Source: Patescibacteria group bacterium (GTDB taxonomy: Bacteria; Patescibacteriota; Minisyncoccia; Minisyncoccales; UBA10102). From it: 39,847 nt of DNA. Position 1 is the first letter of the stretch. Each line of letters starts with the position of its first letter. Shown here piece after piece: positions 9,225-25,285 of the stretch. Below the pieces are notes generated by a model. The model saw nothing but the letters and a program-made list of their open reading frames with translations, ran no database searches and was not told where the DNA came from. The stretch covers positions 257,277 through 297,123 of the forward strand of contig JANBVJ010000001.1 in assembly GCA_024239055.1 (NCBI GenBank), written 5' to 3'. Made by a program: the position numbers and the translations under genes.

Positions 9225-9492
9225 ACTTCACAAGAAGAACAATTCCCAAAAGAAGTATTACCCAGAATCCAAAGAAATAACCTGAGAATATATCCAAGAG
9301 CACTCCACCTACAATTGCATACCAGAAGCTCTTTATATCCCCAGATGCCTCAAAAAAGGCATAAAGAAAAATAAATCCAAAGATAAGATTAGGCACTATT
9401 CCAAAAATAGAAATATGGACAAGAAATGTTGTCTGAAAAATAATCAGAATGAGAAAAAGAATAAATATGAGAAAATTCTTTAACATAATCAA
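9181..9492 (-). CDS. mreD: MreD-like rod shape-determining membrane protein
   Basis: Short multi-TM protein between mreC and pbp2. Confidence 0.65.
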   Translation of the reverse strand: MIMLKNFLIFILFLILIIFQTTFLVHISIFGIVPNLIFGFIFLYAFFEASGDIKSFWYAIVGGVLLDIFSGYFFGFWVILLLGIVLLVKFVIKSYVRPPILQR

Positions 9493-10295
9493 AAAATAGA
9501 ACTTGGAACGTCATAATTTGTAATAACAAGCAGCACATTATACAAGCTGATATTAAAAGAAGGCTCTAGTACTGCTCGCTGAAATGGCTCAACATCTGAT
9601 GTAATAGCTTCAGTAACCTTACCTACAAGAAAATTCCTGGGAAATATACCTCCTAACTCATAGGTAGATACTATATCTCCCTGTTGAATAACCGCATCCT
9701 GCGGAAGAAGTTCTATTATAGCTTGAAACTTCCCTCTTCCTTTTAATACTCCCCCAATTCTATCTTCTCCTACCACTACATCAACTGAGCTTTGCGTATG
9801 AGAAAGAAGACGGACTCTTGAAAATTCACCAATAACCTCCTCAATTCTTCCAACGGCAATCTTCTCTGATGTAATAACGGGCATCCCCTCTTTTACCCCG
9901 GTACCCGAACGAATAACTAATACATCTTGAGTGGGGTCTTTGAAAAGAATCTCACCCTCTACAAACGTATAATCTTCCTCTAAACCAAATGCAAGAGCTT
10001 CCCTAAGTTTTTCATTTTCCTTTTGTATGCTTTCCAACTCACCAATCTTCTGTTCTAATTCTGCATTTTCAAGTAATAGACGCTCATTCTCTGTTTTTAG
10101 CCTTCCTGCATCAAATACCTCTTTACCTGCATCTGAAAAGGAATCTCCTATTTTCCATAAAGCAGACTGAGATGAAGCAAAAATATTCCATACTGTACCT
10201 CTGATTGGATTTTCAATCACATTGAGTGAGATGATTACCAAGAGCACAATAAAAAGGACTGTACGAGACCTTCTTGAAAATAGAACTTTTATCAT
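9489..10295 (-). CDS. mreC: rod shape-determining protein MreC
   Basis: TM, coiled coil (LLLENAELEQKIGELESIQKENEKLREAL), beta domain (VVVGEDRIGGVLKGRGK...GDIVSTYELGGIFPRNFLVGKV). Confidence 0.9.
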   Translation of the reverse strand: MIKVLFSRRSRTVLFIVLLVIISLNVIENPIRGTVWNIFASSQSALWKIGDSFSDAGKEVFDAGRLKTENERLLLENAELEQKIGELESIQKENEKLREALAFGLEEDYTFVEGEILFKDPTQDVLVIRSGTGVKEGMPVITSEKIAVGRIEEVIGEFSRVRLLSHTQSSVDVVVGEDRIGGVLKGRGKFQAIIELLPQDAVIQQGDIVSTYELGGIFPRNFLVGKVTEAITSDVEPFQRAVLEPSFNISLYNVLLVITNYDVPSSIF

Positions 10296-10301
10296 TTATT
10301 C

Positions 10302-10330
10302 ATTATACGGCTCTACTTACCTCTTGACAA
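10302..10330 (-). promoter_or_regulatory. mreC promoter; -10 TATAAT 6 nt before ATG
   Basis: TTGTCA-17-TATAAT-GAATAA-ATG; its -35 overlaps the + strand TTGACA of the divergent ncRNA. Confidence 0.75.
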
Positions 10331-10354
10331 CAAATGCATAATAATATAACATAA

Positions 10355-10692
10355 GGGGCATCTTGGACACTTAGAAACATGTGTCTGGGTGGTGCTCAGT
10401 CAGTGGGGGTATATCAGATGTGCTCTCAGAAAAAGACTAGTCAACGCGGAGGATTTGGTAATAACCTGGAATTAGCTACCGGGTTCAGAAGTACGCCCGT
10501 TTCCGGCAAAATGGTCCGGGATTAAGATTCTGGAGGGGTTCAATAAGACCCTAAAAGGTTCTAGGGCAACGGAATACCAGATCAATGCGCCACAGCCCGT
10601 ACTGGGTATTGGGGTTACAACTGAATAACCCACTTGGCTGACACCAAAAAGCTCTTTCCTCGACGGTACCCCTTCTGGATACCGTCTTTTTT
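10355..10692 (+). ncRNA. structured ncRNA of unknown family (~338 nt), with promoter and intrinsic terminator
   Basis: TTGACA at 10324-10329 with an AT-rich -10 (TATAAC/TAACAT). Long-range helix GGTG-C-TCAGTCA-GTGGG with CCCAC-T-TGGCTGA-CACC encloses about 220 nt. Terminator GACGGTA...TACCGTC-TTTTTTT at 10662-10692. No convincing ORF. Confidence 0.7.
10662..10692 (+). terminator. Rho-independent terminator
   Basis: GACGGTA-CCCCTTCTGGA-TACCGTC-TTTTTTT. Confidence 0.85.
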
Positions 10693-10830
10693 TATGAAAA
10701 GAAAAACCGATGGGTTTAATCATCGGTCTTCAAAATAAGCATCTCTTTGCTAGCTACATGAATATATAGATATAGCTAAAAAGTCAATATATCTATTGAC
10801 AAGTAAAGGAAATAATGATAGTCTATTTAT

Positions 10831-11021
10831 AGGGTGTTTGGGGGTAGGTCTTTGCTTACAATTGCTTGCGCTGCAAGTTCGGGCGGCGATATCCCCGGAC
10901 AGGATATCTCATTAGTGTGACCAAGTCATACGTGCAGCACTCCTGTAGATTAAGGTACAAACGCCTCCGTACCTATTCCGCTGGATAAGCTAAATACGTA
11001 GAGATCTCCCCCAAATACCCT
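10831..11021 (+). ncRNA. 6S RNA-like ncRNA candidate (191 nt)
   Basis: Promoter TTGACA-17-TAGTCT at 10796-10824. Ends pair over 14 bp: AGGGTGTTTGGGGG with CCCCCAAATACCCT. Internal hairpins GATATCC/GGATATC and GGTAC/GTACC. Followed by a strong terminator. Size and closed-rod layout fit 6S, but sequence identity is not verified. Confidence 0.55.
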
Positions 11022-11026
11022 TAAAA

Positions 11027-11068
11027 AACGCCGCAGTACAATAATTGTACCCTGGCGTATTTTTTTAC
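11027..11068 (+). terminator. Rho-independent terminator of the 6S-like RNA
   Basis: ACGCCGCAGTACAATAATTGTACCCTGGCGT-ATTTTTTT. Confidence 0.85.
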
Positions 11069-11080
11069 ATAAACAAAAAG

Positions 11081-11105
11081 CACCCAAATAAATGGGTGTT
11101 TTTGT
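11081..11105 (-). terminator. terminator downstream of 5S rRNA
   Basis: CACCC-ATTTATTT-GGGTG followed by CTTTTTGTTT on the minus strand. Confidence 0.7.
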
Positions 11106-11119
11106 TCATCATAGACACT

Positions 11120-11229
11120 GTAAGAGAGCTACCTACTTTCGCCCGTAAAGACTATCATCGGCCTTGAGAATTTTCACTTCCGAGTTCGGAATGGGATCGG
11201 GTGGAGCACTCTCAGCATAGCTCCCCTAC
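11120..11229 (-). rRNA. rrf: 5S ribosomal RNA
   Basis: Sense CACCCGATCCCATTCCGAACTCGGAAGTGAAA...GCCGATGATAGT; helix I GTAGGGGAGCTA/TAGCTCTCTTAC. Confidence 0.92.
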
Positions 11230-11552
11230 GGTATCTATGATGAAATATCAAACGTCTGCTATAAATTGTTAGCTAATATATTGAAGGGAAGATCATTAGT
11301 ACTCCTCAGCTTAATGCGTTACCGCACTTACACTTAGAGCCTATCAACCTTGTAATCTTCAAGGGATCTAAAAGTTCTTATCTTGGAGTTGGCTTCGTGC
11401 TTAGATGCTTTCAGCACTTATCCATTCCCGACGTAGCTACTCAGCAATGCTCTTGGCAGAACAACTGATACACCAGAGGTCAGTTCATTCCGGTCCTCTC
11501 GTACTAGGAACAAATCTCCTCAAAACTCAACGCCTACGGTAGATAGGGACCA

Positions 11553-11596
<44 letters not shown>

Positions 11597-11657
11597 TTGG
11601 CGAACAGCCAAACCCTTGGAAGCTGCTTCACCTCCAGGATGTGATGAGCCGACATCG

Positions 11658-11955
11658 CTTTGTCGACATTTTGCCCTCGTTACCGAGGGGATCGGACTAT
11701 ATCTTCATCCTCTAAAATCTAAGAGGCGTCGGCGTATTAGCTCTACTTAATAAATAGAACTCCGATTCTTACGAATCAAGTCTCTACAGGGTTATAACTT
11801 AATATGCAACAAACTACATACGATTTTTCAATTAAGTTAAACTTCCCACGGTATTGTCCAGATGTATCTGGTAATACATTTCCTGGAGTTCACCGTTATA
11901 AGCCGAATTTTTCTTGATGACATTACTGTCATGGCGCCCCGATGTATATTACATA
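11658..11955 (-). other. group I self-splicing intron (298 nt, no ORF) in 23S at E. coli U2500
   Basis: Exons GGCACCT^ and ^CGATGTCGG are contiguous in E. coli; intron ends in G; P1 between GGCACCU and IGS GGGCGCC with a U-G pair at the splice site; conserved S element AAGATATAGTCC at 11694-11705. Confidence 0.85.
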
Positions 11956-13868
11956 AGGTGCCGAACAGGGCCGTAGATATGGACTCGCGGGCCCTACCAG
12001 CCTGTTATCCCCGGGGTAGCTTTTATCTGATAATCTCCGCGTTTTCTACGAAAACACGTCGGTTCACTAAGTTCTGGTTTCCCAACTGCTCGACATATCC
12101 GTCTCGCAGTAAAGCTAGCTTGTGCCTTTACACTATCTCCACCATTTCCATCGGCGGATAGCTAACCTTTAAACGCCTCCGTTACCTTTTAGGAGGCAAG
12201 CGCCCCACTTAAACTGTCCACCTCCCACTGTCATTCGCTGAGCGAAATTAGTGCTATCTTCGTAAAAGATGGGTGTTTCATTGATGGCTCCACTAAGACC
12301 GAAATCTTAGCTTCAAAGCCTCCCCACTACGCTACGCATCTAAAAAAATAGAACAATGAGAAGCTACAGTAAAGCTCCCGGGGTCTTTCCGTCTAGCCGC
12401 AGGTAACCGGCATCTTCACCGGTATTGCATTTTCACCGAGCACCTCCTCGAGACAGTTCTCCAGTCGTTACGCCTTTCATGCAGGCCTGAACTTACCAGG
12501 CAAGAGATTACGCTACTTTAACACGGTTATAGTTACCGCGGACGTTCACTGGGGCTTCGACCGCTCAGCCTTCAGATAAATCCAAAGACCGGCAGTTTTA
12601 ACACTCCAGCACTGGTCAGGCGTCAGCCCCTATACATACTTTTACAAGTTGAGCAGGGACCTGTGTTTTTGATAAACAGTCGCCAGAGAAACAGTCGCTG
12701 CGGCCCTAATATTAATTAGGGCAGTCCTTATCCCGAAGTTACGGACACTGATTTGCCGAGTTCCTTAAGGAGGTTTCACTCGTTCACCTTAGCATATTTG
12801 CGCTAACCTACCTGTGTTGGTTTGCGGTACGGACTCTTTAAGTTATACGTAATAGAGATTTTCTTGGAAGCGTGCTCGTTCGGATTCCTTCTCCCGTGGG
12901 AAAAGATTTCCACCACACTTGGATTGCTCCTTATGCAGCCGACAGAAATCCAATAATCTGCCCGAAGTACTACACTCCGTCATCTACTACAACACTTAAC
13001 GAGGGGCAGGAATATTAACCTGCTGTCCATCGCTTCAGACCTTTCGGTTCAAAAGCTTAGGCCCGCCTAACCCTTGGATGATCACCATTGCCAAGGAAAC
13101 CTTAGGTTTTCGGTGTGCAGGGCTCTCACCTGCATTGCGGTTACTCATGCCAACATTCTCACTTCTCATCGCTCCACAAGAGGTCACCCTCCAGCTTCAA
13201 CGCAATAAGAACGCTCTCCTACCACTCCTGAGATAAATCTCAGAAATCCTTATCTTCGGTATTTAACTTAAGCCCCGATAAATCTTCGGCGCAAAACCTC
13301 TGAACTAGTAAGCTGTTACGCACTTTTTAAAGGGTAGCTGCTTCTAAGCTAACCTCCTAGCTATCTGAGAAGTTTCACCTCCTTTCTTAGCACTGAGTTA
13401 AAATTTAGGGACCTTAGATGAAGGTCTGGGCTGTTTCCCTTTTGAACATGGAGCTTAGCCCCCACATTCTGACTGACTATGCTAGTCACTCTAGTATTCG
13501 GAGTTTGGTAAGAATACCTAGCTTGCGCCACGAGAATCCTTTCCAGTGCTCTACCCCCAGAGTGTTGTTCATAATCGCTAGCCCTAAAGCTATTTCGGAG
13601 AGAACCAGCTATTACCAAGCTCGATTAGCTTTTCACTTCTTACCACAGCTCATCCCAAGACGTTGAACGGTCTACGGGTTCGGACCTCCCTTTGCCTTTC
13701 GGTAAAGTTCATCCTGGCCATGGCAAGCTCGCTTGGCTTCGGGTCTTCTCCCATCGATTTTAATTCGCCCTATTAAGACTTGGTTTCCCTATGCCTTCGC
13801 GCCGTAAGCGCTTTAGCAACCGATGAGAAAAACTCGTTGGCTCGTTCTGCAAAAAGCACGCCGTCACC

Positions 13869-14054
13869 CCGCATCTTTTTACTCTTTAAGAAAATATAGT
13901 TGCTGAGAGGCATAGATGTTTCACTTCTAGGCCCAACTAGGATTTGACCAGATGAGCAAGCTCATCTCCCCTCAGCGTTTGGCTCCCCACGACTCAAATC
14001 AGGATCGTTTGGGGACCGCAACATAAACAAAACTTAAAGAACAAAAAGATACGG
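13869..14054 (-). other. 23S helix 25 expansion (~186 nt)
   Basis: Sense CCGTATCTTTTTGTTCTTTAAG...CTTAAAGAGTAAAAAGATGCGG forms a ~22-bp stem at the position of the short E. coli H25 hairpin. Confidence 0.7.
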
Positions 14055-14115
14055 AGCTCCGACTCCTTGTAGGCAAGATGGTTTCAGGTACTATTTCACC
14101 GCCCTCAACGGGCTA

Positions 14116-14154
<39 letters not shown>

Positions 14155-14861
14155 AATATTAAGTATTTAGCCTTTCCCGGTAGAACGGGATGATTCCCAC
14201 GAGGCTTTCGTTTCTCGAGGTACTCAAGAATAATAACAAGGAGCATGAAAGAATTTTCAAATACGGGGCTATTACCCTCTATGGCGCCACTTTCCAGAGG
14301 CTTCTCTTAATCAACAATCAACTTGTGCTCTCCCTCAGGGGCATTCTTGTGCGTAAACACAAGAGCACTCCCGACGTTATTACCTTACAACCCCCTATAT
14401 TCCTAAAGAAATGATAGGGTTTGGGCTCTTCCCTTTTCGCTCGCCGCTACTAAGGGAATAAACAATTCGTTCTCTTTTCCTCCGCTTACTGAGATGTTTC
14501 ACTTCAGCGGGTTCGCTTCTGAGCTAACGCTCAGACGATGCTGGTTTCCCAGCAACAGGTTTCCCCATTCGGACATCTCCGGATCAAAGGTTGCTAGCCA
14601 CCTCCCCGAAGCTTTTCGCAGACACGCCACGTCCTTCATCGCCTTAATATTCCGAGGCATCCCCCATCTGCCTGTAACCTACAATATACTAACTAACAAT
14701 CGATAACATTCGTTCGATATTCTATATTTATACCTCTTTTAAGGTTCTCACGAGCAACCAAAAAACCGCGTCAGAGCGGTTTCATTTCTTTCACAAAAGA
14801 ATATCAGTCCTTAACCGCTTTGATTACTTTTTTATAATCATCTTGTTACTCATGTAAGTTT

Positions 14862-14890
14862 AGTATATATGAGACAAAGAATGATGTCAA
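14862..14890 (-). promoter_or_regulatory. promoter of the 23S-5S transcription unit
   Basis: TTGACA-17-TATACT, about 170 nt upstream of the 23S 5' end. Confidence 0.75.
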
Positions 14891-14906
14891 GGATTAATAT
14901 TTATAG

Positions 14907-15602
14907 CTAATTTGTTATTAAAAATTCACTATTAAAAAGTTCATTTAAGAAGTAACCCGACCATTCTTTATATACATCAGCTTTATGGTTATCTGCGATA
15001 ATATGAAGCAATAATTCAATACATAATGGATTAATTTTTTGAATAATCTTAATATCTTCACCTACATCTTTTTTAAGGTTATATAAACAAAAATCTTTTG
15101 AGAAAGTATCATGCAATTTTACTATATTTTGTACAAATTCAATCTCAGATGCAATTAAATCTGAGCTTTCAAGAAGCTTTGGAACCAATTTCGCTCCTGC
15201 TTGTTCATGTCCCGTAGATTCTGTATTATTTTCTTCATTAATAACATGAAGATATGTGATCCCCTTCTCCTTTTCAACTCCTTTGCCAATATCATGAATA
15301 GCGCTTGCAAGTAATAACAAATCTCCCTTGATATACTTTCCATTTTCATCAACTAACTTATTAAAATATTTCTTATACTTATCTTTTAATTCTAAAGATG
15401 TAATAAAATTAAAATTCAAAAGTTCTTGCATATTAAAAAATACATCTTCCATATGTGAAAGAACATTTTCTGAATCATGATATTCATTATTTTCAATTAA
15501 AGAAGAGAGTCGCTGCATCTCAGGTAATTTAACAACACCATCTATTACTTGAGATAAATCAGAATTAATATCTGAATTTACAATTTCAAAGTTTTTTTTC
15601 AT
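14907..15602 (-). CDS. HD-domain phosphohydrolase-like protein
   Basis: LLLASAIHDIGKGVEKEKG...HEQAGAKLVPKLL...IVKLHD; start set at MKKNFEIV because TATACT-TAAATAT-ATG precedes it. Confidence 0.7.
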   Translation of the reverse strand: MKKNFEIVNSDINSDLSQVIDGVVKLPEMQRLSSLIENNEYHDSENVLSHMEDVFFNMQELLNFNFITSLELKDKYKKYFNKLVDENGKYIKGDLLLLASAIHDIGKGVEKEKGITYLHVINEENNTESTGHEQAGAKLVPKLLESSDLIASEIEFVQNIVKLHDTFSKDFCLYNLKKDVGEDIKIIQKINPLCIELLLHIIADNHKADVYKEWSGYFLNELFNSEFLITN

Positions 15603-15735
15603 ATATTTAAGTATAACAAAAAATCTAATAAACCATATAGACTTCTTGACAAAATACAAATAATATGTAATGATATGAATCAGATTGTACTTATTGCACC
15701 TAAAAAACTAGTATGCACACGGAGATGATGCATCA

Positions 15736-16239
15736 ATGAATAAGAAAAAAATGGTCCTGATGGCGATTGTAGCCATTGCAGCTATTACTATTGGCACAGG
15801 AATTGCCTTTGCCAGTACACTGGTGACCGACTCGGTAACTATCGACGCCAAAGTTCAAGAGCCGATTGAGATTCTGAACTTCAATCACGAAAATCTTTTC
15901 TCTCCAGGAAAAGATTTCTGGCCTGGAAAGCCAGTAGTGCGATGGACTATGCAACTAAAAAACATAGCCGATGTGCCTTTCAGCGTATTGCCTCGCGTTA
16001 TGAAAAAAGATTCCGAAGGAATCGACATCGTCACGGAGACTTACGCAAACGGTGAGCTTGTCTTAACTCCTTGGGTAGGTACAAGTATTGCCCCAGGAGC
16101 GACAATAACACTCGTTGTTGAAGTCCGCATCAGTCCAACAAGTTCTCCAGGAACAATTGGAGATCTCGTTCTCCAAATAGACCGCTACCTCTCGCCTCCT
16201 GAAGTAGAGGTCGAAGAGAACAAGGGACAGCTCGGCTAG
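15736..16239 (+). CDS. secreted protein with N-terminal signal peptide, beta-rich, unknown function
   Basis: MNKKKMVLMAIVAIAAITIGTGIAFAS signal; body resembles camelysin/TasA-like layout only loosely. Confidence 0.7.
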   Translation: MNKKKMVLMAIVAIAAITIGTGIAFASTLVTDSVTIDAKVQEPIEILNFNHENLFSPGKDFWPGKPVVRWTMQLKNIADVPFSVLPRVMKKDSEGIDIVTETYANGELVLTPWVGTSIAPGATITLVVEVRISPTSSPGTIGDLVLQIDRYLSPPEVEVEENKGQLG

Positions 16240-16258
16240 TCTGACCAAAAAAATCGAA

Positions 16259-16302
16259 ATCCCCAGAGTATCTACATAGGTATGTCTGGGGTGTTTTTTA
16301 TA
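16259..16302 (+). terminator. Rho-independent terminator
   Basis: CCCCAGA...TCTGGGG-TGTTTTTTA. Confidence 0.75.
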
Positions 16303-16361
16303 TAACAAAACTCTGTAGGCATATCACCTACAGAGCATGTTTTAGAACAATATTTATTGCT

Positions 16362-17039
16362 CTACCCTCTGAGTTTTCTAATCATATCCTGCAAGAGCAT
16401 AGCTGCCGTATCTTTTCCTCCCAAGCCGAATGCTATTCCACCTGAGATTACAATTAAGGCAACAAGTCCGGTAAAGAGTGTTTGAAGTAATGCTGTAGCT
16501 ACTCCAAGTTGAGTTAACATTGCAATAATTGCAAATATCCAAATGGACCACTTTACCACAGCTCCAACTACTCCTCCGTGAGAAAACTGTGCTGATTCTA
16601 CTGTAGCTCTCATCACCTTCTCTACGATATCGGCAATGATTACTGCTACCGCAAAAATAAGAGCGGCAACAATCACGTTAGGCAAGTAAGCCAATACACT
16701 CTGAAGGAAGATTGCAAATTGGTCTAAACCGAGAATTTCTACTGAAGCAGCTAAGAATACAATAACTAAGACCCATTTTACAATAGATCCAATAAATCCT
16801 GCTGGATCTATTTTCAACTCAGCCTTGTCTAATGCTGACTTCCAGTTTCCCCGTTCAAATATTTGGTTAAAGCGTAGGCGTTTTAATATGTCGGCGATCA
16901 ACTTTCCGAATCCAGCGGAAATTAACCAACCGATAGTAAATACGAGTAGTGCTCCCACCAACTCAGGAATGAAGTTTAAGAAACTCCCCCAGAGATCAAA
17001 CAGGGCGTTCACGGTGACCGCGTACCAGTCAAGTAACAT
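16362..17039 (-). CDS. small mechanosensitive-channel-like membrane protein (conserved TM helix repeat family)
   Basis: Repeated amphipathic TM units (ELVGALLVFTIGWLISAGFGKLIADILKRL; LPNVIVAALIFAVAVIIADIVEKVMRA), C-terminal GGIAFGLGGKDTAAMLL. Confidence 0.75.
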   Translation of the reverse strand: MLLDWYAVTVNALFDLWGSFLNFIPELVGALLVFTIGWLISAGFGKLIADILKRLRFNQIFERGNWKSALDKAELKIDPAGFIGSIVKWVLVIVFLAASVEILGLDQFAIFLQSVLAYLPNVIVAALIFAVAVIIADIVEKVMRATVESAQFSHGGVVGAVVKWSIWIFAIIAMLTQLGVATALLQTLFTGLVALIVISGGIAFGLGGKDTAAMLLQDMIRKLRG

Positions 17040-17150
17040 ATGTGTTTTGATTATATTTCACTTGTATTAAACCGACCTTTCTGCAAGAGTACCTTTAAAA
17101 TGGTCTCTCAGCATTTCTTCATTATACCAGAATAAAGCAGGTCAAATACC

Positions 17151-17429
17151 TTACTTGTGGATAACTTTTGCGAGGCCCAAAACACTATCTTTGTTAACCC
17201 AACCAAATACTCTACTATCAAGACTTTCTTCCTTATTATCCCCTTTTAACCAATACTTCTTATCTATTTTTTTAATAACGCGCTTAAGTAAAAAACGAGA
17301 AGAAATGGGGTGTCTTATAACAGCAACATCTCCCTCTTTTAAACCAATAAACTTGTTCACGAATACAAAGTCCCCTTCTTTGCAGTAGGGCTCCATGCTT
17401 CGTCCTTGAACTCGAAAGAATAAAATCAT
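17151..17429 (-). CDS. sodX: S26-family signal peptidase, probable NiSOD maturation protease
   Basis: QGRSMEPYCKEGDFVFVNK (catalytic Ser), FLLKRVIKK (catalytic Lys), LKGDNKEESLDSRVFGWV; adjacent to the NiSOD gene. Confidence 0.82.
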   Translation of the reverse strand: MILFFRVQGRSMEPYCKEGDFVFVNKFIGLKEGDVAVIRHPISSRFLLKRVIKKIDKKYWLKGDNKEESLDSRVFGWVNKDSVLGLAKVIHK

Positions 17430-17875
17430 TACTTTGACGAAGCCTTCTCAAACATCTCAGCTATATTCTCTACAGCAGAAAGTAATCCCTTTGCCGTATC
17501 CATACTTACCTCCTGCTTTATTTTTGAACATAACTTAGTAGCTGACCAAAATGTATCATGCAAATCAGGAAATATTTCCAAATGTTCTTTATTAAAGAAA
17601 TCTGTCCAAAGAATAAGTAACTGTTCCTTACAAATCTGAGCATGCTCTTCTTTTGTAGCAACATAGCGAGACATGGAATTTTCATACTCCATCACCACTT
17701 TCTTATCTTTCCAGTCTGGAATCTCTAGTTCTTCAATTAACTCAACCATACGGACAACCGTACGGGCTGCTGTGTGAGCTGGTTCTGAGGTATAAATGCC
17801 ACACGGAATATCACAATGCGCATACACTGTATTAAATGGAATAAGCTTATGGATGAAAGAAATAAAACGATACAT
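17429..17875 (-). CDS. sodN: nickel-containing superoxide dismutase (NiSOD) precursor
   Basis: 19-aa leader, then HCDIPCGIY, matching the NiSOD Ni-hook HCDLPCGVY. Confidence 0.88.
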   Translation of the reverse strand: MYRFISFIHKLIPFNTVYAHCDIPCGIYTSEPAHTAARTVVRMVELIEELEIPDWKDKKVVMEYENSMSRYVATKEEHAQICKEQLLILWTDFFNKEHLEIFPDLHDTFWSATKLCSKIKQEVSMDTAKGLLSAVENIAEMFEKASSK

Positions 17876-17887
17876 ACTATTTATATA

Positions 17888-18448
17888 TTACTTATATGTT
17901 GGATGATGTTCCTCACTATGCTTTGTTTTTGCCGCATGACGAGCCATTGCATACAACAAAGAAGACAATCTATTTAAGTAAGCTAAGATTGAAGGCTCCA
18001 ACTTTTTCCTGTGTCGCCTATCTAACTTTACCATAACAACCTCAGCTCTACGAACTACAGAGCGAGCAAAGTCCAACCAAGAGGAAGCTTCATTTGAACC
18101 TGCAATAATAAATCCTTTCTCTGGCTTTACCTTCTTTTCAAATCCATCAATGAGTTTTTCAATTTCCTTAACCTTTTTTAAAGAAAATGGAGGAGCTGTA
18201 AACTTCCTTATCATTAACACTCCTACATGTGCCTGAATAATAAATAGATTCTCCTGTACCTGCTCTAAAATATCTTTATGTCCTTTAGGCAAACTCTGAG
18301 TCTTTACCAATCCCAATAGACTATTAACCTCATCCAAAAATCCAACAGCCTCAATCTCCAAAGAAGTTTTATGTATCTTCTTTCCTTCAATCTCAGAAAC
18401 ACCCTTATCCCCTTTTCCTGTATAAAATAGTCTCTTTAATAAGCTCAT
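17888..18448 (-). CDS. PduO-type ATP:cob(I)alamin adenosyltransferase-like protein
   Basis: LFYTGKGDKG, VGFLDEVNSLLGLV, ARSVVRRAEVVMV. Confidence 0.85.
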   Translation of the reverse strand: MSLLKRLFYTGKGDKGVSEIEGKKIHKTSLEIEAVGFLDEVNSLLGLVKTQSLPKGHKDILEQVQENLFIIQAHVGVLMIRKFTAPPFSLKKVKEIEKLIDGFEKKVKPEKGFIIAGSNEASSWLDFARSVVRRAEVVMVKLDRRHRKKLEPSILAYLNRLSSLLYAMARHAAKTKHSEEHHPTYK

Positions 18449-18476
18449 ATGATATTAACTTTCTCCACCAGTTTTT

Positions 18477-18962
18477 TTATTTCCCTTGAATTCCTATCAG
18501 TTCTACTTCAAAGTACAATGTTGAATTTGGTGGGATCGCTCCAGGTATTCCTCCAGCTCCATATGCAAGTTCAGGTGCAATAGTAAGATTTCTTACGCCT
18601 CCAATCTGCATTCCAGCTACCCCTTCATCCCAACCCTGAATCACTTGTCCTACTCCCAAAGTAAATGTAAATGGCGTATCCTTTGCTCTTGAAGAATCAA
18701 ATGTAGTTCCATTCTCAAACGTACCAACATAGTGTACCGTAACTTGGTCTCCTGCTTCTGCAGTTGCTCCCTCACCTACTTTTATATCTTCAATTTTAAG
18801 TTTTGTTTCTTGTTCCATATTTTCTTGTGGATTTTCTATAACGACTTGCTGATCTTCTTCTGACTGTTGAGAGGAAAAGAATATAAATCCTCCAACAATA
18901 ACAACAGCTACAATAACTAGTATTAAAACCATACTCAATCCCCTCTCTTTAATATGATGCAT
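18477..18962 (-). CDS. FKBP-type peptidyl-prolyl cis-trans isomerase, membrane-anchored or secreted
   Basis: VTVHYVGTFENGTTFDSSR...FTLGVGQVIQGWDEGVAGMQIGGVRNLTIAPELAYG; N-terminal TM. Confidence 0.93.
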   Translation of the reverse strand: MHHIKERGLSMVLILVIVAVVIVGGFIFFSSQQSEEDQQVVIENPQENMEQETKLKIEDIKVGEGATAEAGDQVTVHYVGTFENGTTFDSSRAKDTPFTFTLGVGQVIQGWDEGVAGMQIGGVRNLTIAPELAYGAGGIPGAIPPNSTLYFEVELIGIQGK

Positions 18963-19003
18963 AGAATAATATGTAATTAATAATTCGTATCTATACTATA
19001 TTC

Positions 19004-19085
19004 TACCAAAAAACCGCCTTAAAGGCGATCTTTTGCGAAATGTGGACTACATCGGATTCAATTGGAACCAAATAATTCAGGAATT
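19004..19085 (-). repeat. cassette repeat R1 (tRNA-3'-like element + terminator + extended -10)
   Basis: + strand ctaccaaaaaaccgcc..ggcgat.tttt..tgtggactacatcggattcaattggaacca. Confidence 0.75.
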
Positions 19086-19650
19086 AGGAACCTGGCAGCA
19101 GCTCAGCTCCAATCTTCTCTAAAAGTAACGGAAAAGTCTGAAATCCTGACTGTGCCTGAAAATGTTCTCCTCCTTTTACTAAAGTTACGTTAACCCCTAG
19201 ATTCTTTGCAAGTTCTTCCGCTCTCCCTAAGGGGATATAAGGGTCGTTATCGGAATGAATTACGGAAAAATGCTTACAATTTTGTTTTATCTTTTTCCAA
19301 TCAAAATCTCTTTCAGCAAAATCATCAAGATTTGGCTCCCCTTCCGCTTTAAGATGTCCTGAAAATCCTGCAACCAAGAAAGTTGCCCGAGCACTTACCT
19401 CCCACTGATTCAAAACATTTAGTATAAATGGTACTCCAAGACTATGACCCACAATAATGGAATCTGATAGGTGTTCTTTCATTGGACGAAGAGTATCCAA
19501 CCAATTCTGAAGAGTCTGTTTATCTTCTTCAATAGGAAACTGTGGTAAGAAAACCTGCAATTCTTTTTCTTCCAGTTTTTCTTTCAACCACGGATACCAA
19601 TGAGTATCTTTACTTCCAGAAGAACCGTGAATAATAAATGCTGTTCTCAT
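19084..19650 (-). CDS. RBBP9/YdeN-like serine hydrolase
   Basis: FIIHGSSGSKDTHWYPWLKEKLE, VGHSLGVPFIL, HSDNDPYIP, GGEHF. Confidence 0.82.
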   Translation of the reverse strand: MRTAFIIHGSSGSKDTHWYPWLKEKLEEKELQVFLPQFPIEEDKQTLQNWLDTLRPMKEHLSDSIIVGHSLGVPFILNVLNQWEVSARATFLVAGFSGHLKAEGEPNLDDFAERDFDWKKIKQNCKHFSVIHSDNDPYIPLGRAEELAKNLGVNVTLVKGGEHFQAQSGFQTFPLLLEKIGAELLPGS

Positions 19651-19662
19651 ACACTTTATGAT

Positions 19663-20238
19663 TCAGTACTCTTCATTTTCTACTTCTTTTGGAAATAATA
19701 ATTGAAATGGATAACCTACATAGTTCCTGTTTATTTTCCCGCAGCCAATATCTTTAAGAAATGCAACCATTTCTTCTGTAATCTTTTTAGGATCTACATT
19801 TTCATCCTTACCTTTGTACTCAATTTCTACAAAATCTCCAAGTCCTTTTATCGTATCTAATGCAATCTCATAATCTTCATGCATCCATGTTTTCCTTAAT
19901 TTATCAACTATAACGATTGATTTAAAATTAAGAACGTCTAGTATCTTCTTTAATTTACTTAAATCCCCTATCTCCGTCTCATATTCGTCAGCATAGTTGC
20001 TTTTTCCATCTTCTTCATAGTGCCAGTTCTTATAATTTATTGAGTATGTACCGCCTGAATCTCTTAGCCGTATCCACTCTTTTATTGGACGAACCTCAAT
20101 AAAATTACGATGAGCCGGAGAAAAATACTCATCTACTTGATGTTTTTCCGATTGAAAGTCAGCATTCTTTTCCAAAAACTCAATGAGTGGTTTACTGTTC
20201 TCAATCCTAACTTGTATTTCAATTTCAATATCAGACAT
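19663..20238 (-). CDS. CYTH-domain protein (class IV adenylate cyclase-like)
   Basis: IEIEIQVRIENSKPLIEFLEKNA...WIRLRDSGGTYSINYK...DYEIALDTIKGLGDFVEIEYKG. Confidence 0.82.
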   Translation of the reverse strand: MSDIEIEIQVRIENSKPLIEFLEKNADFQSEKHQVDEYFSPAHRNFIEVRPIKEWIRLRDSGGTYSINYKNWHYEEDGKSNYADEYETEIGDLSKLKKILDVLNFKSIVIVDKLRKTWMHEDYEIALDTIKGLGDFVEIEYKGKDENVDPKKITEEMVAFLKDIGCGKINRNYVGYPFQLLFPKEVENEEY

Positions 20239-20249
20239 ATATCTTACTA

Positions 20250-20340
20250 TACCAAAAAACCGCCCTTATGGCGATATTTTGTTTTTGTGGACTACATCGG
20301 ATTTAGTTGGAACCAGATTATAGAGGAATTGTTGGCTTGG
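20250..20340 (-). repeat. cassette repeat R2
   Basis: taccaaaaaaccgcccttatggcgatattttgtttttgtggactacatcggatttagttggaaccagatta. Confidence 0.8.
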
Positions 20341-20393
20341 AAGGGTTACGCAGACTTAGAGAACAGGACCTAAATCTTAAACACATTACTGAC

Positions 20394-21017
20394 TCACAAA
20401 TTATCTAATACTGAGGGTAATTCAGATAACCCATCATCCCCACTAAAATGCCCTTTGCCAGTTTCAATTATAATTTTTGCATTGAGTTCCTTCTCAAATA
20501 ACTCTTTATTCTCTTCAAATGGAACAAGAGGATCGTCTTCCGAAAAGATACAAGTGAAGCTTTCTGCGGCGTTCTTTATTCTTCTAAAATCTATAGAAGT
20601 TTCTATCCAGGGTCTTGCAATAGATTTAGATTCTTCATCTGACATCGCTTCTAAAGTAAGAGTCATCCAAGGAGCAACAAGAACGACACTCCCTACTTTA
20701 CTATACGATAAAGATTTTTCTCTATATTTCTTCCCCACAGCCTCAAAATATGGGAGCTTCTGACTAATGGATTCTAAATATCGTAGCACAGTCTGACAAC
20801 CTACGCTGTGTCCAACAAAATGTGTATTTTCATCTGGGTACTTTATTTCATCTTTAAGTAACCCAACCCAGTCCACAATAGTTGGGTTCTCTGGATGGGG
20901 CATTGTAAAAATAGATACCTCAAAATCTCTACTCTCTAATTCCTGTTTTAGCCAAGGAAACCATCCCTCTTCTGGATAGCCATCCCACCCGTGAACAACA
21001 TAAACTCTTTGCTTCAT
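20394..21017 (-). CDS. RBBP9-like alpha/beta hydrolase
   Basis: VYVVHGWDGYPEEGWFPWLKQELE, GHSVGCQTVL, FSEDDPLVP, GKGHF; start at MKQRVY, 8 nt after TACAGT. Confidence 0.8.
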   Translation of the reverse strand: MKQRVYVVHGWDGYPEEGWFPWLKQELESRDFEVSIFTMPHPENPTIVDWVGLLKDEIKYPDENTHFVGHSVGCQTVLRYLESISQKLPYFEAVGKKYREKSLSYSKVGSVVLVAPWMTLTLEAMSDEESKSIARPWIETSIDFRRIKNAAESFTCIFSEDDPLVPFEENKELFEKELNAKIIIETGKGHFSGDDGLSELPSVLDNL

Positions 21018-21029
21018 ATAATCACACTG

Positions 21030-21105
21030 TACCAAAAAATCGCCTGCTTGGCGATTCTCTGGTGTTTGTGACCAAATCGGAATCTGTTGGAACCAATTAG
21101 TAAAA
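21030..21105 (-). repeat. cassette repeat R3 (divergent)
   Basis: gtaccaaaaaatcgcctgcttggcgattctctggtgtttgtgaccaaatcggaatctgttggaaccaatta. Confidence 0.65.
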
Positions 21106-21133
21106 TCTCTTAAAGAATACGATGAACTAATGT

Positions 21134-21487
21134 CTATTTCTTCACAATGTTGTTCTCAGAATCCTTATGGTCATATTTCACAAGGATTTCATCCTTTACC
21201 ATATTGAATGCCTCCTCGACATCAACATCAAGTTGATTTGCGAGACGGCAGAGTCCAAAAAACAAATCTCCAATACCATCTACAAAAATATCTTTATTCT
21301 GTTTAACAAATTGAATCCTTTCCTCCTCTGATTTATATCTCAGGTGCTGTGACATTTCTATAAGTTCCTCGTGTAAATGATCGAACTTATCAACATTAGG
21401 AATATCTTTCCATGCGTTACGTTCAGCAAAAAACTGCACAAGAGCCTGTGATTCTTTCATTGTCTCTATTGTTTTCTTTACATCCAT
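21134..21487 (-). CDS. MazG-like nucleotide pyrophosphohydrolase family protein
   Basis: FFAERNAWKDIPNVDKFDHLHEELIEMSQHLRY...DIFVDGIGDLFFGLCRLANQLDVDVEEAF. Confidence 0.65.
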   Translation of the reverse strand: MDVKKTIETMKESQALVQFFAERNAWKDIPNVDKFDHLHEELIEMSQHLRYKSEEERIQFVKQNKDIFVDGIGDLFFGLCRLANQLDVDVEEAFNMVKDEILVKYDHKDSENNIVKK

Positions 21488-21509
21488 AAAACTATCTTAC
21501 CAAAAAACT

Positions 21510-21929
21510 TTACTCGCCAAGAAATCTTTTAAAAGCCTGATACTCTTCCATATCACAAAAGTCACTTCTCTTGAGTCGATCATCTACAGATGCCCAAAAG
21601 TAGCTGCTGTGCTCTGGAGAAAGTTTGATACTCCCTGATATGTACTTCCCCTCATATACAATAACAAACACTGGGACTTTACGATTAGCAGATTTACGAT
21701 AGTGAGCAGCAATGGGTTTCCCAATTTTATACTTCACTTTACTCCCCAATTCTTCTTTTACCTCCCGGATCAATATTTTCTCAAGCGGAATATCACCTTC
21801 AATGTTATCAATACGGCCACCCGGTAAATCCAAATGGTCGTCTTTTGTATTTCTCAAAAATAAAAACTTCTTATCTCTTTCCAAAAGTATTTTTAAGGAG
21901 ACCTGGTACTTTTCAAAATCACGGTTCAT
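21510..21929 (-). CDS. NUDIX hydrolase
   Basis: Nudix box GGRIDNIEGDIPLEKILIREVKEELG; start at MNRDFEKY, 7 nt after TAGAAT. Confidence 0.9.
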   Translation of the reverse strand: MNRDFEKYQVSLKILLERDKKFLFLRNTKDDHLDLPGGRIDNIEGDIPLEKILIREVKEELGSKVKYKIGKPIAAHYRKSANRKVPVFVIVYEGKYISGSIKLSPEHSSYFWASVDDRLKRSDFCDMEEYQAFKRFLGE

Positions 21930-21936
21930 CTTTATC

Positions 21937-22045
21937 ATTCTACCAAAAAACCGCCATTATGGCGATATTTTGTTTTTGTGGACCAAATCGGATTCAGTTG
22001 GAACCAGATTATTGCAGAGCTACAACTCTTCCAAGATCTTGGTTC
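21937..22045 (-). repeat. cassette repeat R4
   Basis: ctaccaaaaaaccgccattatggcgatattttgtttttgtggaccaaatcggattcagttggaaccagattatt. Confidence 0.8.
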
Positions 22046-22117
22046 TTTCACTTATACATAAATTACCTTATCAAAAAAGCAAAGGAATCTTTCTTTTCGC
22101 ATTGGAGTGATAGAATT

Positions 22118-22429
22118 TTAAAAAGAGTCAATCATACTTACTCCAAAAGAAACAGGAACAATATTCCTTGGTGGATCAGGAATACTTGGATTTTCTGGAG
22201 CTGTTTTTGGTGTTCGAGAAACTGGAGAAAGAGCAAATCTATCCCTTATTATAAATTTATTCATATCTTTATCATTAGCTATAACTCCTCGAAAATTTCC
22301 TTCGGAATCCCAAACTGTATTACCGTCAACCCAACCTAAATAAACGCCATCTCTTGAAAACACAAAACCACCCTCGATAAACCCCAAGTAATTTCCGTTT
22401 GTTTTGAATATAAATATTATATTACCCAT
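22118..22429 (-). CDS. small beta-repeat protein, 4-fold beta-flower-like
   Basis: YLGFIEGGFVFSRDGVYLGWVDGNTVWDSEGNFRGVI repeats; overlaps the protease gene by 8 nt. Confidence 0.55.
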   Translation of the reverse strand: MGNIIFIFKTNGNYLGFIEGGFVFSRDGVYLGWVDGNTVWDSEGNFRGVIANDKDMNKFIIRDRFALSPVSRTPKTAPENPSIPDPPRNIVPVSFGVSMIDSF

Positions 22430-23105
22430 TCTTTTCTTCTTCTAAAGTTTTATGCTCAGGAATATAAGAAGCTGGTACTGCATATCCAACGCCAAGTTGC
22501 AGATTTCTTATCAGCGCGGTGTAAATTTCGACAACATCTACTCCGTGTAGGGATAATGCACCAAACTCCATATCTTCTACCTTTTTTAAAATTTTACCCC
22601 TCTCTCTTCCTGTCGCATTAACAACACCTATTACCTCGCCATCTGAATTCATTAAAGGACATCCACTGTTTCCAAGATTAACCGTGCCATCGATAAGATA
22701 TGTAACTACTCCTACTGCATCTTTAGTTATAGCAGAGAGTATGCCTTGATGAGTTATAGGAATTTTAGAATTTAGTGGATACCCAGAAAATACCACTGGC
22801 ATTCCTTCTTTAACTACCGAAACATCCGCAAGTATAAGTGGTTCTATTGTATCATCTTCAAATTTTAAAAGGGCAAGATCGTGCTCATCATCTCGAACTA
22901 CTACTTTTGCATTAATATATTCCCCTTCTGGAAACTTAATGAGAAGAGACTCAGCTCCTCTAACTACGTGATTACAAGTAACTAAAACTCCTTTTTTAGA
23001 AAATACAAAACCTGTACCAGTTCCAGAACTTTTTCCTTTTTTGTTTATAGTAACAACGAGTGCAATACTTGACCTTGTCTTATTTACGGCATTGGAGCAA
23101 TCCAT
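22422..23105 (-). CDS. trypsin-like (S1C) serine protease domain protein
   Basis: GTGFVFSKKGVLVTCNHVV (His), DEHDLALLKF (Asp), NLGNSGCPLMNSDGEVIGV (Ser). Confidence 0.88.
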   Translation of the reverse strand: MDCSNAVNKTRSSIALVVTINKKGKSSGTGTGFVFSKKGVLVTCNHVVRGAESLLIKFPEGEYINAKVVVRDDEHDLALLKFEDDTIEPLILADVSVVKEGMPVVFSGYPLNSKIPITHQGILSAITKDAVGVVTYLIDGTVNLGNSGCPLMNSDGEVIGVVNATGRERGKILKKVEDMEFGALSLHGVDVVEIYTALIRNLQLGVGYAVPASYIPEHKTLEEEKNG

Positions 23106-23170
23106 ATTTTATACTAACTCATAGTATAATATTATTCAACAATTTCCTCTGTCTATTATAAAAGAGATCA

Positions 23171-23208
23171 TACCAAAAAACCGCCCTAATGGCGATCTTT
23201 TGTATTTG
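23171..23208 (-). terminator. terminator after tRNA-Ala, same unit as in cassette repeats
   Basis: taccaaaaaaccgccctaatggcgatcttttg; minus strand CGCC-ATTAG-GGCG-GTTTTTT. Confidence 0.7.
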
Positions 23209-23282
23209 TGGACCTGATCGGATTCGAACCGATGACCCCTTCATTGCAAATGAAGTGCTCTAGCCAGCTGAGCTACAGGCCC
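23209..23282 (-). tRNA. tRNA-Ala(TGC), CCA not encoded
   Basis: GGGCCTGTAGCTCAGCTGGCTAGAGCACTTCATTTGCAATGAAGGGGTCATCGGTTCGAATCCGATCAGGTCCA. Confidence 0.95.
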
Positions 23283-23340
23283 CTTCTCTCACATCGTGCG
23301 CACTTTGTGAGACGTGGCCGTACTTTTCACACCAGTACGG

Positions 23341-23417
23341 TGGTGGGCGTGGAAGGACTCGAACCTTCGACCTCATTCTTATCAGGAATGCGCTCTAACC
23401 AGCTGAGCTACACGCCC
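23341..23417 (-). tRNA. tRNA-Ile(GAT), CCA encoded
   Basis: GGGCGTGTAGCTCAGCTGGTTAGAGCGCATTCCTGATAAGAATGAGGTCGAAGGTTCGAGTCCTTCCACGCCCACCA. Confidence 0.95.
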
Positions 23418-23507
23418 CAAAAAAGAACTATAAGGGATTATACAAGAAAACAAACCCTTCGTAAAGGGTTGGTTTCCGTTGATTCCTAAAAGTTGTTTCA
23501 ATTCTAG

Positions 23508-25090
<1,583 letters not shown>

Positions 25091-25285
25091 AAATAAATAG
25101 AATTGAAACAACTCTTAAAAATCAACACTAGTGTGTATATTAAGTTTTCAAATAACTATCTCATCTGATTCTATCTCTCAAAACAACTCTCCAAGACATT
25201 CAAATAAACACCTTGGAGAGTGGTCTTCTAAAGAAGATTGAATATCGTTTTTTTTACATAGGTTTGTTAAATAAGCTTAATTATC

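Follow-up and report, generated by a model that had tools for sequence, protein, structure and literature searches.

The 39,847-nucleotide stretch analysed here (the window) belongs to the genome of a Patescibacteria group bacterium (Minisyncoccales; UBA10102) and contains an 824 bp interval between mreC and the 5S rRNA gene (positions 10296-11119). Two units lie inside this interval, both on the + strand and therefore on the strand opposite to mreC and 5S rRNA (Table 1). The initial annotation had placed an unassigned structured RNA at 10324-10692, next to mreC. That gene assignment is confirmed by a match to the MreC family, and the structured RNA, termed RNA1 below, is borne out by its folding, its strand asymmetry and its lack of an Rfam match. 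The second unit, RNA2, had been overlooked. It is built like RNA1, with a promoter, a folded RNA and a terminator, and lies 140 nt downstream. The GC content of RNA1 and RNA2 is 0.49 and 0.47, respectively, compared to 0.27 in the flanking spacers; in AT-rich genomes, a locally raised GC content within a long intergenic region points to a structured RNA gene (PMC8632094).

Table 1. Features of the 5S-mreC interval and its surroundings, in window positions.
Feature	Position	Strand	Remarks
mreC	9489-10295	-	MreC by PF04085, E 5.9e-26
mreC promoter	10302..10330	-	TTGTCA (10330-10325), 17 nt, TATAAT (10307-10302); 11/12 consensus match
RNA1 promoter-like site	10324..10352	+	TTGACA, 17 nt, TAACAT; expected start ~10355
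RNA1 structured RNA	10355..10693	+	~338 nt including terminator; strand-specific fold, high GC
RNA1 5' hairpin, 9 bp	10362..10389	+	pair probability 0.97
RNA1 closing helix, 5' strand	10391..10407	+	16 pairs with 10629-10645
RNA1 closing helix, 3' strand	10629..10645	+	16 pairs with 10391-10407
RNA1 inner domain	10445..10589	+	9-bp helix 10452-10460/10575-10583 around three hairpins
RNA1 intrinsic terminator	10662..10693	+	GACGGTA..TACCGTC, then T7
Terminator-like hairpin facing left, between RNA1 and RNA2	10702..10731	-	
RNA2 promoter-like site	10797..10825	+	TTGACA, 17 nt, TAGTCT; read from the sequence and from alignment with the RNA1 promoter
RNA2 structured RNA	10832..11066	+	fold z, basal helix; without Rfam family
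RNA2 terminator hairpin with T7	11028..11066	+	pair probability 0.92-0.97
5S rRNA	11120-11228	-	
Group I intron in 23S gene	11673-11976	-	70.8 bits

Structure and transcription signals of RNA1 and RNA2

Folding of RNA1 (10340-10692) gave an energy of -119.2 kcal/mol and a z-score of -3.2 relative to dinucleotide-preserving shuffles, none of which (0/100) reached the same energy. This z-score is moderate; intergenic regions elsewhere on the chromosome equal or exceed it. Upon removal of the terminator (10355-10660) the z-score was -3.6 on the + strand (0/150 shuffles) and +0.5 on the - strand. The asymmetry is caused by 17 G.U pairs that become A.C mismatches on the opposite strand. It fixes the strand of the RNA and speaks against a simple DNA palindrome. 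The minus strand was accordingly ruled out as the RNA strand, and a strong minus-strand fold at 10561-10800 was discarded because it covers two terminator hairpins, and these can form on both strands. In an ORF scan the longest + strand frame starting from ATG encoded only 48 aa, in agreement with the earlier statement that RNA1 holds no credible ORF; an 83-aa ORF on the - strand overlaps RNA1.

The 16-bp long-range helix described previously proved exact. It is composed of GGTG/CACC (4 pairs), TCAGTCA/TGGCTGA (7 pairs, one of them U.G) and GTGGG/CCCAC (5 pairs), with mean pair probabilities of 0.93-1.0. When the outer thirds of RNA1 were paired with each other, the best duplex scored -59.5 and was beyond all shuffles (-35.1 +/- 6.1, minimum -50.2). 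Enclosed by this helix are an unpaired A-rich inner strand (10429-10444) and the inner domain, which folds with a z-score of -2.8 on the + strand and -0.8 on the - strand and whose 9-bp helix has a probability of 0.98.

RNA2 folds more strongly than RNA1, with a z-score of -6.9 for the whole unit and, for 10832-11020, of -6.1 on the + strand and -3.1 on the - strand. Its basal helix of 23 bp (10832-10855/10998-11020) has a probability of 1.00, and its ends carry inverted repeats. When the chromosome was scanned for intergenic regions closed by long helices, this helix ranked third, behind the stem of the 5S precursor and the top-ranked helix at positions 460776-460913 of the main chromosome contig (C1). 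The latter, on the - strand (L161:776-913), is a further structured orphan RNA: its closing helix measures ~24 bp, a TTGACA-type promoter lies nearby, and it has no Rfam family. Tandem duplication as the origin of RNA1 and RNA2 was rejected since their promoters are similar but their RNA bodies dissimilar. RNA1 and RNA2 showed no more complementarity than shuffles, be it between the two or with the 16S, 23S and 5S rRNAs.

The promoter proposed for RNA1 is in place and matches the consensus at 10 of 12 positions, but the consensus match by itself is at chance level (2 sites found, 2.1 expected). The site carries weight because of its position and its likeness to the RNA2 promoter, which extends over 32 nt and was equalled in none of 300 shuffles. 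The claim of a strong terminator holds: the stem at 10662-10686 forms with a probability of 0.99 and is followed by TTTTTTT. It is absent from the list of a simple terminator scanner, presumably owing to its loop size. RNA1 in this way combines a promoter, with the above reservation on its consensus, with a terminator, a strand-specific structure and the absence of an ORF, which are the marks of an independent noncoding RNA gene.

The -35 boxes of RNA1 (TTGACA, 10324-10329) and mreC overlap by 5 bp, the common stretch reading TTGACAA on one strand and TTGTCAA on the other, so that polymerase should not occupy both promoters at once. Transcription of RNA1 would therefore probably compete with that of mreC. 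A TATAAT-like box is found just upstream of mreC in the gap sequences of most relatives, and RNA1 consequently appears to have been gained on top of an existing mreC promoter.

Comparison with known RNA families

A covariance search against Rfam, the test by which the initial annotation proposed that its reading could be refuted, returned nothing for RNA1 at the gathering threshold; relaxed to E 10, it gave no more than off-target noise. The same was true of RNA2. The absence of RNase P RNA and tmRNA signatures from RNA1 was upheld. The class A RNase P RNA model (RF00010; P4 core GAGGAAAGUCC / ACAGAA) and the tmRNA model (RF00023; tRNA-like ends and a tag reading frame) matched neither RNA1 nor RNA2, and ARAGORN found no tmRNA in the window. 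RNase P RNA and tmRNA resemble RNA1 in being of similar length, single-copy and structured with paired ends, but both are encoded elsewhere on the chromosome, RNase P RNA at C1:317091-317455 (125.9 bits) and tmRNA at C1:430062-430420 (130.4 bits).

The SRP RNA model (RF00169) likewise matched neither RNA1 nor RNA2, even up to E 10, and the symmetric loop of SRP helix 8, GGUCAGG...AGCAGCC, was absent from both on reading, as had been noted before for RNA1. Covariance and pattern searches of C1 for an SRP RNA gave nothing convincing. Across 11 genomes, this one and 10 relatives, RF00169 exceeded its cut-off in none, the sole weak match being located on contig C16 of this genome's own, probably mixed bin. 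SRP RNA in this order is divergent or missed.

For 6S RNA (RF00013) no covariance-model match was obtained in RNA1, in RNA2 or elsewhere in the genome. In its organization 6S RNA is like RNA1, as a stand-alone gene with a sigma-70-like promoter and a terminator, in which a long closing helix leads through a wide internal loop to an upper domain. It is, however, ~185 nt long compared to the 338 nt of RNA1. A weak RF00013 match below cut-off (28.8 bits) was found in one relative, G011 (L137:1505-1633, - strand), and corresponds to a stand-alone RNA that is closed by a helix of 21 bp. A model built from this RNA finds C1:87971-88099 (L142:7971-8099, + strand) with 20.2 bits and E 0.07. This region, which is missed by Rfam, has a TTGACA-type promoter, GCCC/GGGC closing ends and a terminator, and shares the stretch CACCCACCTGG with the RNA of the relative. 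An ACAGC..ACACCCACCTGG-like sequence is also common to the two, and both lie between promoter and terminator. The region is on these grounds a better 6S candidate than RNA1, and is to be taken as a lead and not as proof. A palindromic repeat of ~100 nt (TTTTGAGAACGTTGGGAGCGCGACTGGCGCGAGC...) was also observed at two unrelated places of the same relative, in L137 and in the 5S-mreC gap (L072).

The bacterial GOLLD, ROOL and OLE RNAs are ~600-800 nt in size. Like RNA1, these 'ornate' RNAs are free-standing, large and highly folded, with functions that are not obvious (PMC12286853). Their families have many members, whereas RNA1 has none, is shorter and lacks an Rfam match. A closer likeness is found in the orphan candidates of the GC-IGR pipeline, which share with RNA1 a long intergenic region, high local GC content in an AT-richer genome, no ORF and a strong fold (PMC8632094). 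For each candidate in that publication a few homologues or more exist, while RNA1 is known from a single sequence. RNA1 belongs with such orphan structured RNA candidates, a kind already described. Literature on noncoding RNAs of Patescibacteria/CPR beyond housekeeping RNAs is very limited, and no dedicated study was found.

Distribution in relatives and genomic setting

The gene order 23S-5S-mreC is kept in 19 relatives for which 5S and mreC lie on the fetched stretch. In these the 5S-mreC gap spans 47-376 bp, with a median of 81, versus 824 bp here, and the extra DNA is RNA1 and RNA2. No homologue of either RNA was found there. By blastn no relative of either was recovered from 25 genomes of the family, 247 of the order, phages or plasmids, and covariance models, each built from a single sequence and hence of limited reach, recovered none from the order (246 genomes) or from a sample of the phylum (380 genomes). 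Exact scans of IMG/VR viral contigs for 16-17-mers identified 25 loci, none of which was accepted by the RNA1 or RNA2 models, and a MreC query against a collection of genome contigs gave no useful relative. Matches rejected for lying inside coding DNA comprised the sub-threshold model matches inspected, one of 15.7 bits in thrS of G057 and others in L100 and L102, and a blastn match (E 0.002) inside a UDP-GlcNAc epimerase-like gene of G134. RNA1 is also single-copy in its own genome. With no homologue recovered, there is no covariation to speak for a conserved structure. The earlier suggestion of a new CPR RNA class, which calls for homologues with compensating base changes, is therefore not supported; relatives with the same gene order lack the RNA. 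On the sequences compared, the pair would most simply represent a lineage-specific gain; close sister sequences may exist unseen in metagenomes.

The rRNA operon adjoining the interval is split (window 11276-25096). Between 16S-tRNA-Ile-tRNA-Ala and 23S-5S lie roughly 8.5 kb of protein-coding DNA in the same orientation, including genes for Ni-superoxide dismutase, cobalamin adenosyltransferase and FKBP. Besides the group I intron of the 23S gene here, one is present in a relative (L062). In three other relatives (L066, L067, L085), ORFs of ~190 aa or more are found upstream of mreC; they fall inside the 23S match or close to it and are possibly intron-encoded.

The genome bin is probably a mixture, in which case its size of 1.08 Mb would be inflated. 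The GC content of C1 (568,579 bp), which may be nearly the whole chromosome, is 0.40, and that of C2-C6 and most small contigs 0.33-0.37. Contig C4 (53.6 kb; L130, L134-L136) has the look of a large phage. It encodes, by PHROGs, a terminase large subunit, a polynucleotide kinase, an ATP DNA ligase and a helicase, by eye a TyrRS-like ORF, and further ~25 tRNA genes in 9 kb and a tmRNA (85.7 bits). C4 also carries an RNase P RNA of its own, which at 81.8 bits falls short of the gathering score of 100 and from this gene content is possibly phage-encoded.

Interpretation of the locus

We consider it probable that 10355-10693 is an independently transcribed noncoding RNA gene on the + strand, that RNA1 and RNA2 were gained together between 5S and mreC in a single lineage, and that RNA1 acts in trans. 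The case for the gene is a good one, with fold and strand computed, and from its layout we infer the following mode of action. RNA1 would be transcribed from TTGACA-17-TAACAT, starting at ~10355 and ending at the intrinsic terminator. The 16-pair helix would close the RNA and carry the multi-hairpin inner domain, and the stable product would act in trans, either bound by protein or pairing with other RNAs via its unpaired inner loops. Firing from the overlapping -35 box may in addition block the mreC promoter, or vice versa.

The alternatives were weighed against the same data. RNA1 and RNA2 might be a fossil, that is a decayed mobile element, intron or phage insert whose inverted repeats fold but serve no function. 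A 0.7-kb insert confined to one lineage within an otherwise conserved gene order, inverted repeats at the ends of RNA2, the lack of relatives and the strong folding of several other intergenic regions of the contig all fit such an origin. Two promoter-RNA-terminator units in register are not expected from decay, however, and folding that depends on strand through G.U pairs is unlike that of DNA palindromes. Neither a transposase nor a further copy was found in the genome, and searches of phages, plasmids and viral contigs produced no accepted match. We regard the fossil as unlikely, although it is the alternative to be taken most seriously. Somewhat less likely still is that RNA1 is a very divergent housekeeping RNA, namely SRP RNA, 6S RNA or an additional RNase P RNA or tmRNA. 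This would account for the missing SRP RNA on the main chromosome contig, for the failure of RF00169 in all 10 relatives searched and for the lack of an RF00013 match in the genome, and the rod of RNA1 with its wide internal loop is loosely 6S-like. The initial annotation's suggestion of a very divergent known RNA keeps some ground because no SRP RNA was located, but RNA1 has no defining feature of the families tested, is three times the size of a small SRP RNA, and competes with a better 6S-like candidate, while RNase P RNA and tmRNA are accounted for elsewhere. A housekeeping RNA would moreover be expected in relatives, where none was found.

The overlap of TTGACA and TTGTCA, through which one polymerase would exclude the other, could also mean that RNA1 is mainly a divergent transcription arrangement that controls mreC in cis, with the RNA body as a by-product. 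A by-product needs no 16-pair closing helix, folded inner domain or terminator of its own, and RNA2 is equally structured yet has no contact to mreC, which makes such an arrangement improbable, slightly more so than a housekeeping RNA. Least credible is a degenerate group I-type ribozyme that has become free-standing. The idea arises from the intron in the adjacent 23S gene and from a CAGAA...TTAAGATTCTG segment that by eye could mimic P7 and J8/7. RF00028 (P3-P8, P4-P6 core, P7 G-binding site) readily finds the 23S intron but, in the same search and up to E 10, did not match RNA1, and attempts to assemble a P3-P8 core by eye failed.

RNA1 is therefore probably best described as a credible but unexplained RNA of one lineage, an orphan candidate. 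It is a speculative extension, which we hold to be rather unlikely, that RNA1, RNA2, the RNA at C1:460776-460913 and possibly more form a set of lineage-specific, free-standing long-helix RNAs, fast-evolving and functional, perhaps united as a family by their shape and protein partner and not by their sequence. The rRNA-mreC junction is compact apart from the 0.7 kb that RNA1 and RNA2 together fill. This suggests that such reduced genomes acquire new structured RNAs, in this case beside, and possibly coupled to, a gene for cell shape.
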